From assembly GCF_033242265.1 (NCBI RefSeq), contig NZ_BTFW01000002.1, forward strand, positions 36,815 to 100,814: a DNA stretch of 64,000 bases, read 5' to 3'. This DNA comes from Novosphingobium sp. IK01. GTDB lineage: Bacteria; Pseudomonadota; Alphaproteobacteria; Sphingomonadales; Sphingomonadaceae. The position numbers and the translations under genes were made by a program. Shown in pieces: positions 2,287 to 50,542 of this stretch. Position 1 is the first letter of the stretch. Every line of letters begins with the position of its first letter. The notes beneath the pieces are model-generated. The model made no database searches. It worked only from the letters and a program-made list of their open reading frames with translations, and was not told the DNA's origin.

Positions 2287-2546
2287 TGGCCTACCCCCGA
2301 AATGATCGCGCCGAAACCAAAACCCTCGGCAGCGTCCTCAATGGTGGTCTCAAGGCCGTCAAAATCTTCCTCCGGCCCCAAAAGGTCTGCAATCTCGATG
2401 ACGGTGGCAAGATCCGCGCCGTGGTTCTCTGCCAAGTCTTTGATGTAACCGAAGCGGTCAAAATTGCCCTCCTCCTCATAGCGCGAAAGGTCGATGGTCC
2501 GTGCAGCGTTGAGCCGGAGAATGGTTGCGAGCGGGGTGCCGGTCAT
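2283..2546 (-). CDS. Small acidic plasmid protein, 87 aa
   Basis: I chose the internal ATG at 2546 (MTGTPLATIL) rather than the longer frame because it overlaps the upstream gene's stop as ATGA and leaves compact operon spacing. The product is acidic (SRYEEEGNFD, GPEEDFDGLE), with no membrane segment or signal. It is the second gene of the operon that begins at 2791. The family is not recognised. Confidence 0.6.
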   Translation of the reverse strand: MTGTPLATILRLNAARTIDLSRYEEEGNFDRFGYIKDLAENHGADLATVIEIADLLGPEEDFDGLETTIEDAAEGFGFGAIISGVGQ

Positions 2547-2791
2547 GCGCTCAACTCCGCATAAGTGGCGCTGCATTCATAGCGGATCGCATCGCCATCC
2601 CACATGGGGCCGATCAAGCCTGTGAATTTGGGCGCGCCTTGAAGCTCTTGTCGCTGGCTCGCATTGCTGTTGAAGCCCCGGCACCGAAAACCCTCGACGG
2701 CGGCGCGGGCGGCCACGATCTGCGCGCTGGCTCCCTCGATTTCGATCGTGCGGAAACCTTGCTGAGCGGTCTGATAAATGCGGATTTTCAT
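2543..2791 (-). CDS. Small plasmid protein, 82 aa, first gene of leader-controlled operon
   Basis: It begins MKIRIYQTAQQG. The start at 2791 is preceded on the minus strand by GAAAGGGAAACAAGC, nearly identical to the sequence in front of ardC. This gene and ardC therefore share a ribosome-binding region and the long structured leader (element A). The product is 82 residues, soluble and unrecognised. Its stop overlaps the next gene as ATGA. The shared leader implies expression together with ardC, perhaps early after plasmid entry; that is inference. Confidence 0.6.
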   Translation of the reverse strand: MKIRIYQTAQQGFRTIEIEGASAQIVAARAAVEGFRCRGFNSNASQRQELQGAPKFTGLIGPMWDGDAIRYECSATYAELSA

Positions 2792-3007
2792 ACGCTTGTT
2801 TCCCTTTCTCTTTTGATGGAGCCGAAGGCGATGGCGTCCATCGACTTCTGCCCGCTGGCGAAGTGGGTCGGGGAATGGCGCAAACACGGGCTGGTCGCGG
2901 GGGAGGGGGATCACCCATCCTGCACGGAGCGTAGCGAAGGAAGGATGGGGAAACCCCTGCGACCACCAAGCGGAGCGCGGCACGCGCGCAGACGGCTTGG
3001 CCCTTGC
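2792..3007 (-). promoter_or_regulatory. Element A, copy 1: structured repeated 5' leader
   Basis: About 200 nt directly upstream of the 82-residue gene matches 4184-4394 upstream of ardC. Shared features are a small perfect hairpin (2829-2834 with 2838-2843), a long stem (2892-2902 with 2954-2965) enclosing a second stem (2914-2921 with 2942-2949), and the Shine-Dalgarno region. At the inner stem the two copies differ at positions that stay pairable (A-U and U-A here, G-U wobbles in copy 2). This argues for a conserved fold: a leader RNA or a promoter active on folded single-stranded DNA. Confidence 0.6.
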
Positions 3008-3108
3008 GCCAGGGGGCCGGAACAGGCCCCGGAGCTTCACAAACAACGCGACGGAATAGCCGTCTCCGCTTGCGCTGGAGCCAAGGCGACGATTTACCAT
3101 AGAGGCGG

Positions 3109-3145
3109 AATACGGCGGCGGGGGCAACGCTACCGCCGCCGTATT
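3109..3145. repeat. Perfect GC-rich hairpin
   Basis: Bases 3109-3121 pair perfectly with 3133-3145 (13 bp, TACGGCGGCG core) around an 11-nt loop. It lies between ardC and the 82-residue gene, upstream of element A copy 1. It lacks a T tract. It may be part of the same regulatory leader or a site for a plasmid protein; the role is unknown. Confidence 0.5.
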
Positions 3146-3205
3146 ACGCCGGCAAATCACGATCTATGGGGCAATTGTGGTCATGGTTTTTGTCTTTCCC
3201 TCCTG

Positions 3206-3235
3206 ATGAAAGGAGGGCGACAGGGGCCGCCCTCC
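3206..3235 (-). terminator. Probable terminator of ardC
   Basis: Bases 3212-3219 (GGAGGGCG) pair with 3228-3235 (CGCCCTCC). On the minus strand the stem is followed by a short T-rich run, 10 nt after the ardC stop codon. It would end the ssb-ardC transcript before the next leader. Confidence 0.5.
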
Positions 3236-3244
3236 GGGATGACG

Positions 3245-4183
3245 TCAGGCGGCAATGGCCTGCGCGGGCGTGTCTACGTGTGAAAGGATCAGCTCGCTTG
3301 CGGCTTGCGCAGCGGTTGCGGCGCGGAAAATGGCCCGCTTGTCGTTACGCAAGGCGGTCAACCAAGAGGCAACATAAGCGGCGTGATCCTCACGCTCAGT
3401 CGGTTCCATCCCAAGTTGCGCGCAAAGCATGGCTGCGCCGACTTCGGCAATAAGCTCTTCCTCCGCCCTGATTTCTCGCGATTTCCCGTAATCGCGCAGG
3501 GTTTCGCGGGCGAGGCGCTTGGCGTGGCCGGTGCTATGCACGGCTTCGTGCGCAAGGGTCGCATAGAAGGCATTGCCGCTTTCAAAGTCAGCAAAGGCGG
3601 GCATCTGGATGTGGTCGGCAGCGGGGCTGTAATAGGCGCTCGATCCGCCCTCGGCGTAGGGCACGGGCCAGCGGGCAAATGCCGCATCAAGATCAGCGTC
3701 CCGCTGATCGCGGTTCTTGATCTCGATCCGGGGCACGGGGTACTTGCTCATATCGAGACCATCGATTTGCTCGACGTTGAAAACGACATACTTTTTCAGG
3801 AATTTACGGGTTGCTTCCTCGCCCTCGCTGGTGGTGACAGGCTCGCCGGTTTCCCCATCCTTGGGGGTGAAAGTTCCGGCATGAACGACAAGATTGCCCT
3901 TCTCCCCCTTGCGAACCTGCCCGCCCAGCTCGGCGGCTTGGCGGTAGGTCATCCAATAGGGGTTAATGAAACCGCGCGTCATAGCGGCGGTCCAGAGCAA
4001 AAGGATATTGATACCGCGATAGGCGGTGCCCTCATGCCGCAAGGGCAGGGTTGCAGCGCCGGAAGCCCAACGGGGCGACCACGGGCGCGTGCCAGCTTCC
4101 AGCATGGCGATAATCTGGGCGGTGACTTCCTCGTAAACATCGGCGCGGGGGGCAGTGTTCTGGCGGGTGGTCTTGCGGGTCAT
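3245..4183 (-). CDS. ardC: ArdC-like antirestriction protein
   Basis: This 312-residue protein has the two-domain ArdC layout. The N-terminal DUF1738-type ssDNA-binding domain spans about residues 10-140 (ADVYEEVTAQIIAMLEAGTR, YRGINILLLW, WMTYRQAAELGGQVRKGEKG). A zincin-like C-terminal domain carries HEAVH at 212-216, followed by a downstream glutamate in EELIAEVGA. ArdC proteins protect incoming plasmid DNA from host type I restriction by binding ssDNA. The gene follows ssb on the same strand and is preceded by element A copy 2, so coordinated early expression is plausible. The start at 4183 is supported by the conserved Shine-Dalgarno region. Confidence 0.85.
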   Translation of the reverse strand: MTRKTTRQNTAPRADVYEEVTAQIIAMLEAGTRPWSPRWASGAATLPLRHEGTAYRGINILLLWTAAMTRGFINPYWMTYRQAAELGGQVRKGEKGNLVVHAGTFTPKDGETGEPVTTSEGEEATRKFLKKYVVFNVEQIDGLDMSKYPVPRIEIKNRDQRDADLDAAFARWPVPYAEGGSSAYYSPAADHIQMPAFADFESGNAFYATLAHEAVHSTGHAKRLARETLRDYGKSREIRAEEELIAEVGAAMLCAQLGMEPTEREDHAAYVASWLTALRNDKRAIFRAATAAQAASELILSHVDTPAQAIAA

Positions 4184-4394
4184 GTGCTTGTTTCCCTTCC
4201 TCGATGGAGCCCAAGGCGATGGCGTCCATCGGCTTCTGCCCGCTGGCGAAGCCGGGGGGGTTGAACCGGCATGAGGGCTGGTCGCGGGGGAGGGGGATCA
4301 CCCGTCCTGCACGAAGCGCAGCAAAGGAAGGGTGGGGACACCCCCGCGACCACCAAGCGAAGCGCGGCACGCGCGCAGACGGCCTGGCCCTTGC
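4184..4394 (-). promoter_or_regulatory. Element A, copy 2: structured repeated 5' leader of ardC
   Basis: Imperfect direct repeat of 2792-3007, immediately upstream of the ardC start. The outer stem is perfect here (4279-4290 with 4341-4352, 12 bp). The inner stem is kept through G-U wobble pairs where copy 1 has Watson-Crick pairs. The small cgatgg/ccatcg hairpin is identical. Two unrelated genes sharing one structured leader suggests common control. Confidence 0.6.
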
Positions 4395-4490
4395 CGGGAA
4401 GGGGGGAGGCCGCCCCCCTTGATCTGGAAAAGGAAATGTGGCCGCCCTGGCGGCCTCAGCTTCGAGCGAGGATCGTTGCCCGCATGGGAC

Positions 4491-4554
4491 GAAACCGCTC
4501 GGCGGGTTCGGTCGGAACGCAGTGGAGATAGAGCCGTGCTGCCAAGCCGCTCCC
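4491..4554. repeat. Element B, copy 2
   Basis: Same 64-nt element as 204-267, 12 nt downstream of the minus-strand ssb stop. The third copy at 49926-49989 lies inside the 470-bp duplication, so it is not independent. Copy 1 beside the HEPN gene is independent and diverged, which supports a selected element. Confidence 0.65.
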
Positions 4555-4566
4555 GCTTGGGAAAAA

Positions 4567-4887
4567 TTACTGCTCGCCGCCTGCCTTTGCCAGGACAGAG
4601 AAGGTGTCAGCAATCAATTCCGTCCGATAGGCAATCTCGTTGCCCTCCCCGTGGCTGGTTTCGCGCATTCGTCCAGTGATGTGAACCAGATCGCCTTTGT
4701 CAGCACCCTCAATCTGCTCACGGACATTCGAGAAGCCGACCACGCTGTTCCAATGAGGGTCGCTCTTCCACCCGTCGCCATCACGGCGGTTGTAATTGGC
4801 CGCGACGGTGACATAGATCACCTTGTCGCGCGGCGTGATCTTGCCGATCCGGCCGATGATCCGAAACTCAGCGATGTTCTGCGGCAT
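4567..4887 (-). CDS. ssb: Plasmid single-stranded DNA-binding protein, copy 1
   Basis: The 106-residue OB-fold SSB binds ssDNA during plasmid transfer and replication. It has the family pattern: IAEFRIIGRIGKI at the start, a central WNSVVGFSN strand, and GDLVHITGRMRETSH corresponding to the conserved G-x-x-V-x-V-x-G-R-hydrophobic strand. It lacks the long acidic-tip C-terminus of chromosomal SSB, which is usual for short plasmid forms. An identical gene lies at 50002-50322. It precedes ardC on the same strand with a 383-nt gap holding element A. Confidence 0.85.
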   Translation of the reverse strand: MPQNIAEFRIIGRIGKITPRDKVIYVTVAANYNRRDGDGWKSDPHWNSVVGFSNVREQIEGADKGDLVHITGRMRETSHGEGNEIAYRTELIADTFSVLAKAGGEQ

Positions 4888-4914
4888 GGTCCACTCCCTT
4901 GGCTAATCCACGAT

Positions 4915-4952
4915 GGGGTGACTACACGAAAGTGACGTATCTGCACGGTAAG
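4915..4952 (+). repeat. Tn3-family terminal inverted repeat (Tn-A end)
   Basis: A 38-bp sequence starts GGGGTGAC and ends CACGGTAAG, the usual length and end bases of Tn3-family repeats. It lies 19 bp beyond the stop codon of the truncated transposase gene and 10 bp from the end of the ssb repeat. I could not find its partner in the window, so Tn-A appears to have lost its other end. Confidence 0.8.
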
Positions 4953-31830: not shown

Positions 31831-32859
31831 TCAGCGCGAGGCGATTCGCGTGGGCGGGGCGGTGCCGGTTCCCAGCAGGTGGCCGTCGACCATCTTGCCG
31901 TAGAAGGTCTTTTCCTTGGCATGGAACGCCTTGGCGTTCTCCTCGACGGTGCCTTTCTGGCGCGGATCCTTGGGCCGTTCCTGGCTATCGATCCAGGCGG
32001 CGGCGTCCCACGACTGCTGGTCGCTGAGCGAATTGCCCGCGCCGAGCGGCATATTCGCCTTGATGAAACCGGCGGCATTATTGACCACCGCCATGCCGGC
32101 GCCCCAGTTGTAACTTTTCGGCCCCCACAGCGCCGGGAAGACGACCCGGCCGTTGAGGTCGGTGCGGCCCTGTCCATCGGCACCGTGGCAGGCCGCGCAA
32201 TGCTGGGCATAAACCGCCTGGCCACGGCTGCGATCGTAGCCGAGCGCGGTCAGCTTGAGCTTTACGAAACCCGCGCCCTTCAGCTTGGTGTCGGTGGGCG
32301 CACCCTTCGCGAGCCAATGGAAATAGGTCTGGAGATCGGCATAGACCGGATCGCCGGGCTTGGGCGGTCCGCCGCTCGGACTGTCCTGCGCGTTCATCGA
32401 ATAGCTGAAGCAGCCCTTCAGCCGGTCTTCCATGGTGTTGATCTTCCCGTTCTTGGACCGGTACTGGGGGTAGCTGACCCACGCCGCCCACATCGGTGCC
32501 GAGTTGGTCTTGCGCCCGCCGTCGAGGTGGCAATTGCGACAGGCAAGGCCGTTGCCGACGAACTGCGATGCCTGCGTACCGGTATTCTCGAAGATCGCGA
32601 GCCCGTGGCGGATCGCGTCGCCTTCAGGACCGCCGGGGATCTTGCTCATCGGTGGTGGCGTGAAGCTGACCGGCGTGCCCGGCGCCGATACGGCGGCATC
32701 GGGCGTGGGCGCATGGTGGAACTCGTCGCGGATGAGCACCGCGAAGACGAACAGCGTTACGCCGCCACCAAGGGCGTAGAGGCCGCGGCGAGTGGTCCGC
32801 GCACGATCATGATCACGCGGCGGCTCGCTGCTGGCGGGATCGCGGGACTCGTCCATCAT
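31831..32859 (-). CDS. Membrane-anchored diheme c-type cytochrome, TsdA-like
   Basis: A 342-residue protein with an N-terminal anchor (GLYALGGGVTLFVFAVLI, about 26-43) and two heme c sites, CRNCH at 107-111 and CAACH at 221-225. The block YPQYRSKNGKINTMEDRLKGC matches the thiosulfate dehydrogenase (TsdA) family, which oxidises thiosulfate to tetrathionate or works in reverse. It overlaps the upstream triheme gene (ATGA), so it appears to feed or draw electrons from the cbb3-like oxidase. Thiosulfate activity is inferred. Confidence 0.8.
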   Translation of the reverse strand: MMDESRDPASSEPPRDHDRARTTRRGLYALGGGVTLFVFAVLIRDEFHHAPTPDAAVSAPGTPVSFTPPPMSKIPGGPEGDAIRHGLAIFENTGTQASQFVGNGLACRNCHLDGGRKTNSAPMWAAWVSYPQYRSKNGKINTMEDRLKGCFSYSMNAQDSPSGGPPKPGDPVYADLQTYFHWLAKGAPTDTKLKGAGFVKLKLTALGYDRSRGQAVYAQHCAACHGADGQGRTDLNGRVVFPALWGPKSYNWGAGMAVVNNAAGFIKANMPLGAGNSLSDQQSWDAAAWIDSQERPKDPRQKGTVEENAKAFHAKEKTFYGKMVDGHLLGTGTAPPTRIASR

Positions 32860-49869: not shown

Positions 49870-50339
49870 AATGTGGCCGCCCTGGCGGCCTCAGCTTCGA
49901 GCGAGGATCGTTGCCCGCATGGGACGAAACCGCTCGGCGGGTTCGGTCGGAACGCAGTGGAGATAGAGCCGTGCTGCCAAGCCGCTCCCGCTTGGGAAAA
50001 ATTACTGCTCGCCGCCTGCCTTTGCCAGGACAGAGAAGGTGTCAGCAATCAATTCCGTCCGATAGGCAATCTCGTTGCCCTCCCCGTGGCTGGTTTCGCG
50101 CATTCGTCCAGTGATGTGAACCAGATCGCCTTTGTCAGCACCCTCAATCTGCTCACGGACATTCGAGAAGCCGACCACGCTGTTCCAATGAGGGTCGCTC
50201 TTCCACCCGTCGCCATCACGGCGGTTGTAATTGGCCGCGACGGTGACATAGATCACCTTGTCGCGCGGCGTGATCTTGCCGATCCGGCCGATGATCCGAA
50301 ACTCAGCGATGTTCTGCGGCATGGTCCACTCCCTTGGCT
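49870..50339. repeat. 470-bp direct repeat carrying ssb, copy 2
   Basis: Identical to 4435-4904 (offset 45,435 bp) and in the same orientation. It includes element B copy 3 at 49926-49989. To its right the original backbone continues into the 79-residue and toprim genes, so this copy keeps the native 5' context of ssb. Copy 1 keeps the native 3' context. Confidence 0.9.
50002..50322 (-). CDS. ssb: Plasmid single-stranded DNA-binding protein, copy 2
   Basis: Same 106-residue protein as at 4567-4887 with no differences seen. This copy retains the natural upstream region: its start overlaps the 3' end of the 79-residue gene, which follows the toprim gene. It is therefore likely to be the expressed copy in that operon. 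Downstream of it, element A and ardC are replaced by the island junction. Confidence 0.85.
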   Translation of the reverse strand: MPQNIAEFRIIGRIGKITPRDKVIYVTVAANYNRRDGDGWKSDPHWNSVVGFSNVREQIEGADKGDLVHITGRMRETSHGEGNEIAYRTELIADTFSVLAKAGGEQ

Positions 50340-50542
50340 GATGGACGTTGGCCCGAGCCCAGACCTGGCCATTGTGGATCGCGCAGGATCTGATCGAGCC
50401 CGGTAAAGGCGTGACAGGCCGAAGGCGGCGCCAGGCCGAAACAAGACATGCTGCCATCCTGAAGATGACTGCCGCCAAGCGGAACTTGCGTGGCCGCGAA
50501 AAGCAAGGCCGCGCCGCCGCCCAAAAGCGCCCGCGCTCTCAC
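50303..50542 (-). CDS. Small protein between toprim and ssb genes, 79 aa
   Basis: The GTG start overlaps the toprim stop (GTGA) and the stop codon lies 20 bases inside ssb, so the three genes form an overlapping chain. The N-terminus is hydrophobic (RARALLGGGAALLFAATQVP), and the rest is polar with two cysteines. Overlaps at both ends support a real gene, but no family is recognised. Confidence 0.45.
   Translation of the reverse strand: MRARALLGGGAALLFAATQVPLGGSHLQDGSMSCFGLAPPSACHAFTGLDQILRDPQWPGLGSGQRPSAKGVDHAAEHR

Follow-up and report, generated by a model that had tools for sequence, protein, structure and literature searches.

We found that a structured element of about 200-220 nt, two copies of which lie in the stretch of DNA analysed here, is widespread on alpha-, beta- and gammaproteobacterial plasmids, where covariation supports its fold. 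An initial annotation had described a structured repeat of about 200 nt ahead of two genes; the repeat is real, and its copies precede a gene for an 82-residue product and the antirestriction gene ardC. On sequence comparison, we judge the chances to be about evenly balanced that the element is a single-stranded-DNA promoter or initiation site for plasmid-entry genes, of a class apart from Frpo in sequence.

The plasmid and its element copies

The window (the whole stretch analysed, 64,000 nt) covers positions 36815-100814 of the 100.8-kb contig NZ_BTFW01000002.1 of Novosphingobium sp. IK01. This contig is very probably a conjugative plasmid, since it carries VirB10-, VirB11- and VirD4-like coding regions, recognised by reading translations, and a Pfam Relaxase match at contig positions 19441-20895 with a ribbon-helix-helix gene just before it. 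The same genome has a second relaxase on another contig (C4:34634-34894), where the covariance model found no copy of the element.

The two window copies share one block of 120 nt (2888-3007 and 4275-4394, 93% identical) and another of 58 nt (2815-2872 and 4203-4260, 90% identical), and the shared stretch reaches the ribosome site, as had been claimed. A third copy (contig 32582-32784), only 77% identical, precedes a ParB-like gene. This divergence and the relatives found in many genera speak against a simple recent duplication found nowhere else, which the initial annotation had allowed for. Beyond the central stems P2 and P3, the predicted folds of both window copies include the hairpins P4, P5 and P0 and an outer stem, P1 (Table 1).

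Table 1. Element parts and adjoining genes, in window coordinates
Feature	Positions	Strand	Basis or remark
82-aa gene behind copy 1	2543..2791	-	no Pfam match
Hairpin P5, copy 1	2829..2843	+	predicted
Hairpin P4, copy 1	2851..2867	+	predicted
Core, copy 1 (before 82-aa gene)	2888..2969	+	covariance model, 84.0 bits, E 6e-20
Stem P2, copy 1 (2892-2903 with 2954-2965)	2892..2965	+	alignment to model; free fold is a variant
Distal hairpin P0, copy 1	3013..3030	+	predicted
ardC, antirestriction gene behind copy 2	3245..4183	-	Pfam ArdcN and MPTase-PolyVal
Hairpin P5, copy 2 (CGATGG/CCATCG)	4217..4231	+	predicted; stems of the region exceed shuffles across copies
Hairpin P4, copy 2	4239..4256	+	predicted; outside covariation count
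Outer stem P1, copy 2 (4266-4271/4392-4397 and 4274-4278/4387-4391)	4266..4397	+	predicted; outside covariation count
Core, copy 2 (before ardC)	4275..4356	+ (template strand)	covariance model, 84.2 bits, E 5.2e-20
Stem P2, copy 2 (4279-4290 with 4341-4352, 12 bp)	4279..4352	+	covaries across copies
Internal-loop strand AGGGGGA, copy 2, opposite N-A (4339-4340)	4291..4297	+	invariance largely from search pattern
Central stem-loop P3, copy 2	4298..4338	+	two variable pairs, often G.T on plus strand
Distal hairpin P0, copy 2	4399..4420	+	predicted
ssb-like gene, upstream of copy 2	4567..4887	-	Pfam SSB

Other repeats were seen in the same region. A second, different repeat of about 70 nt (window positions 4486-4555 and 199-268) has four copies on the plasmid contig, all in one orientation; it also occurs in 14 other plasmid records, from sphingomonads, one Shinella and one Pseudorhizobium, and in several records directly follows an ssb gene. 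A weak Abi_2-like protein (284-994, below the Pfam cut-off) lies beside one copy of this repeat. A 482-bp stretch that includes the ssb gene (4435-4916) is duplicated at about 49870-50351, some 45 kb away, with 99% identity, and transposase-like genes, recognised from their translations, lie between the two.

The fold and the strand that folds

The initial annotation had suggested a covariance model and a search of plasmids with it; the covarying fold is present on many plasmids, ahead of anti-restriction and other entry-type genes. For comparison, 147 distinct copies were reduced to 70 at <75% identity, and their cores were aligned on the template strand (69 distinct sequences). A lack of covariation in wider alignments had been named as evidence against the element; what we found for P2 (12 bp) together with the central P3 was 0.402, against 0.127 +/- 0.009 in shuffles and 0.05-0.10 for slid pairings. 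In the same two stems 89.1% of cells pair (72.4 in shuffles) and 259 cells are changed on both sides (93.4 in shuffles). Counting the pairs that show a change on both sides did not discriminate: there are 12, where shuffles give 11.4, and 12 is attained in 215 of 500. Eight of the ten P3 pairs are invariant; much of this, and of the invariance of the AGGGGGA loop, is explained by the exact pattern with which most copies were collected. Across 69 sequences, the best perfect stem of the P5 region had a mean length of 6.3 bp; for shuffles the mean was 4.5. Fold energies of single copies, taken on the sense strand as RNA, are only moderately better than those of shuffles (z -3.1 and -2.1), and the strong support for the fold is comparative covariation rather than single-copy energies.

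What pairs as G.T on one strand becomes an A.C mismatch on its complement. The claim that A-U pairs are replaced by G-U with the fold kept holds only for the plus strand, the template of the genes, but the same two changes are A.C mismatches on the mRNA strand. Among 128 distinct cores, the outer variable pair of P3 is Watson-Crick in 64, G.T on the template strand in 57, G.T on the mRNA strand in none and otherwise composed in 7; the corresponding counts for the inner variable pair are 93, 22, 8 and 5. At the 12 P2 positions of these cores wobbles total 48 on the template strand and 23 on the mRNA strand. Over all variable pairs of the representatives there are 76 template-strand and 23 mRNA-strand wobble cells, where column composition predicts 113 and 78. 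Among 2000 column shuffles (mean 34.9), 12 attained the difference of 53, a statistic that ignores relatedness; when each stem is taken separately, 36 of 2000 shuffles attain the difference seen in P2 and 344 of 2000 that seen in the two P3 pairs. The excess at pair 30-78 is absent after allowing for composition.

The RNAalifold consensus is -29.0 for the template strand and -15.0 for the mRNA strand; in column-permuted alignments, where permutation destroys the fold too, the mean strand difference is -0.06 and none of 100 reaches 14.05. When the fold was taken without G.T pairs and single mismatches were counted, there were 14 G.T to 6 A.C, a weak result beside the 31 to 42 of five shuffles each. 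A control run of the wobble test on the Frpo copies of F, two copies only, did not validate it, giving 15 to 14 on the template fold and 13 to 12 on the sense fold. Wobble pairs modestly favour template-strand over mRNA folding. Single-copy strand energy was rejected as evidence: in 69 of 70 copies it is the template strand that folds more stably, yet the mean difference is 4.68 against 4.55 in shuffles.

These counts bear on the alternative that survives best, a structured 5′ mRNA leader that would control translation, stability or readthrough of establishment genes, for example by silencing them in donors. Such a leader would suit an element that ends at the ribosome site with near-constant spacing and whose P2 can pair in either strand, and the EGeRS1 region of pLS20 is reported to block readthrough from upstream promoters (PMC8708921). 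In mRNA, however, those 57 of 128 cores would carry an A.C mismatch at the outer variable pair of P3, a position with no mRNA-strand G.T in any core, and relative to prediction it is the mRNA-strand wobbles that are the more depleted. A leader reading alone also does not predict the relaxase-strand bias described below. We regard a leader as possible though rather unlikely.

Distribution, genes served and orientation

The exact core pattern occurs in at least 120 stretches in named genomes. Among the matches listed for it, most are from Alphaproteobacteria, with others from Thiothrix, Pseudomonas and Competibacter, and with metagenome bins, possibly mis-binned, under the labels Bacteroidetes, Saprospiraceae, Chlorobiaceae, Acidobacteriaceae and Scalindua. 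The pattern had no match in viral contigs, and the sequence of one element copy had none in phage records. BLAST with 417 nt spanning the element and the adjacent repeat matched 99 plasmid records; among the best 60 of the 99 rows, 54 reach into the element and 6 match the adjacent repeat only. Iterated nhmmer gave 37 element copies within the loci collected at that stage. The element also occurs on a Nitrosospira plasmid (73 bits), and a weak match (32.9 bits) lies on a Variovorax replicon. The element is present in the sphingomonad-type plasmids that the initial annotation had named, but it is not confined to them.

Among the genomes searched with the covariance model, the element was present in 20 of 396 from the order, 15 of 385 from the class and 13 of 398 from the phylum; each count includes the window's own genome, and the filters used lose weak matches. 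This survey supersedes an earlier one of the order by plain DNA comparison, whose 29 of 296 included many short weak matches. At least two copies were present in 12 of 19 records. As a check on whether chromosomal copies belong to integrative conjugative elements, 20 of the 54 listed frames around three such copies were scanned: ArdC, HipA, GmrSD and IS21 genes lie beside one copy, ParB-like and quorum-sensing genes are near a second, and no relaxase was found among the frames scanned.

An open frame starts 60-260 nt downstream, the range searched, in 141 of 146 copies; one copy has none and is followed by an IS3 transposase, and four have too little flank. The distance from core to start is 80-125 nt in 122 of the 141, with a median of 102 nt. 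The downstream frames fall into 65 groups, and 49 representatives were scanned, with matches that include the ArdC N-domain (13), zincin-like metallopeptidase (11), DUF3768 (7), ParB HTH (5), ArdA (4), DUF932 (3) and DNA methylase (1). The leading region of F likewise holds ssb, ParB-like, DUF932, methylase and antirestriction genes. Proteins resembling the 82-aa product also follow the element at other loci; this gene, DUF3768 and DUF932, marked by the element, are likely establishment genes. ArdC is reported to be required in the recipient and not in the donor (PMC7213743), which fits a switch working on arrival.

Orientation was examined in the window's plasmid and in 26 further plasmid records chosen for variety among the matches, 27 in total, many of the sphingomonad plasmids being related. 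A relaxase match is present in every record, in one case below the family cut-off, and two of the element matches are weak (26.0 and 32.9 bits). The relaxase strand served as proxy for the transferred strand, and the leading region was judged from the kinds of gene present. In 46 of 52 copies the model matches the strand opposite to that of the relaxase gene, and 24 of the 27 records show this arrangement for most or all of their copies, so that the gene served is on the relaxase strand. Going by this proxy, the template would be the transferred strand. The exceptions are one copy each in NZ_CP115460, NZ_CP037914 and NZ_CP017427 (the latter two near-identical), a single copy in each of two Caulobacter plasmids, lying about 1 kb from the relaxase, and one on a 1.16-Mb Rhizobium replicon. 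In R388, ardC and ssb are on the relaxase strand, matching the prevailing arrangement, and most leading genes of F are oriented likewise relative to the tra genes shown.

Two loci, L045 and L046, carry near-identical copies that run against the relaxase-strand rule, and the small served gene of L046 faces a relaxase operon; the element at these loci is perhaps a moved cassette.

Readings of the element and known systems

The reading of the element as a single-stranded-DNA promoter or initiation site is favoured by the covariation, the near-constant spacing to the start codon, the kinds of gene served and the multiple copies per record; orientation and wobble pairs favour it over an mRNA leader, only moderately. 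It is weakened by the six copies of opposite orientation, by the modest size of the wobble excess and by the choice of records, which was ours and included related plasmids. Between a single-stranded-DNA promoter and a leader RNA the initial annotation had left the choice open. The comparison bears out its predicted pattern and leans moderately to the former; the likeness to F that it drew did not extend to sequence, the model failing to match F's Frpo.

On this promoter reading, the transferred strand (the plus strand here) would enter the recipient first, and each element on it would fold into P1-P2-P3 with the conserved internal loop. RNA synthesis would start on the folded strand toward the adjacent gene. 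Establishment genes, those for anti-restriction among them, would then be expressed ahead of second-strand synthesis, and conversion of the plasmid to the double-stranded form would abolish the signal, making expression early and transient.

A related alternative is a single-strand initiation site that provides primers for second-strand synthesis, with secondary effects on neighbouring genes. Frpo is said to be given both promoter and priming roles in the title of Masai and Arai 1997, and toprim-domain genes lie near element copies in five plasmids. Priming, however, needs neither a near-constant start-codon spacing nor a copy before each of several genes, and we consider this alternative unlikely. 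An antisense RNA from the strand opposite the genes would give the same wobble pattern, as a copy of that strand; its promoter, we infer, would need to be in the short ribosome-site stretch or in unrelated downstream genes, and a weak scan found no promoter-like site in the window region, making it highly improbable. Least probable of all is a protein-binding site in double-stranded DNA, such as an operator, with palindromic arms. It would suit repeated copies ahead of genes that may be co-regulated, but P2 changes sequence yet keeps its complementarity, which points to a folded single strand or cruciform.

A bolder form of the promoter reading, which we hold tentatively and at somewhat less than even probability, is a Proteobacteria-wide single-stranded-DNA gene switch unrelated to Frpo, in which polymerase or a plasmid factor would recognise the conserved internal loop instead of -35/-10 boxes. 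If so, several copies per plasmid would join anti-restriction, methylase, ParB-like and uncharacterised genes in an 'entry regulon' marked by DNA shape. A covarying element of different design in alpha-, beta- and gammaproteobacterial plasmids offers a way to study how anti-defence genes may be expressed when other plasmids enter a cell. Even if it acts as RNA, this would be a structured element of which we found no description in the literature searched, most subscription papers and preprints lying outside its reach; the initial annotation had likewise known of none for sphingomonad-type plasmids.

With the structured RNA families of Rfam the element has in common covarying stems, conserved loops and a position upstream of genes. 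No Rfam family reached its gathering score, either in the window or over 38 kb from the contig start, and such weak matches as lie near the element score less than half of their cut-offs.

In the Bacillus plasmid pLS20, structured EGeRS1 repeats without a clear promoter in the published description precede ardC and other establishment operons (PMC8708921). Like the element, they are rich in inverted repeats and lie immediately upstream of the ribosome site, but they are 420-750 bp long against about 220 nt here. EGeRS1 was judged not to be a single-stranded-DNA promoter because the transferred strand of pLS20 is the non-template strand (PMC8708921, section 4.1), so a structure before ardC is by itself no proof of such a promoter; this precedent weakens the promoter reading and strengthens the leader alternative. 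For the element, in contrast, the relaxase proxy gives the template as the transferred strand in 46 of 52 copies, a comparison with EGeRS1 made by description, not sequence.

The closest likeness is to Frpo1 and Frpo2 of F and ssi of ColIb-P9, non-coding hairpin sequences repeated before several leading-region genes. In the reports consulted, knowledge of single-stranded promoters comes from F and ColIb-P9, from relatives identified by their similarity to these and from candidates picked out by -35/-10 boxes, and Frpo-like promoters have been sought across plasmids in both of these ways (PMC11541004). Canonical -10 and -35 boxes are reported for Frpo (PMC9849209); our sigma-70 scan for such boxes had no match at the element and also misses the Frpo regions of F. 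At the reported Frpo positions F has two intergenic segments that are 89% identical. Their architecture differs from that of the element, and the covariance model had no match up to E 10 in an 18-kb F stretch or in R388. Frpo is reported to be required for early expression in transconjugants (PMC9849209), a precedent that favours the promoter reading. The kinds of gene served overlap with those of F, and two features of the Frpo/ssi class are present in the element: a conserved stem-loop fold, by covariation, and a place ahead of probable leading-region genes in a mostly fixed orientation to transfer genes, by the relaxase-strand proxy. By this analogy the element is likely to be Frpo-like in function and a separate class in sequence.
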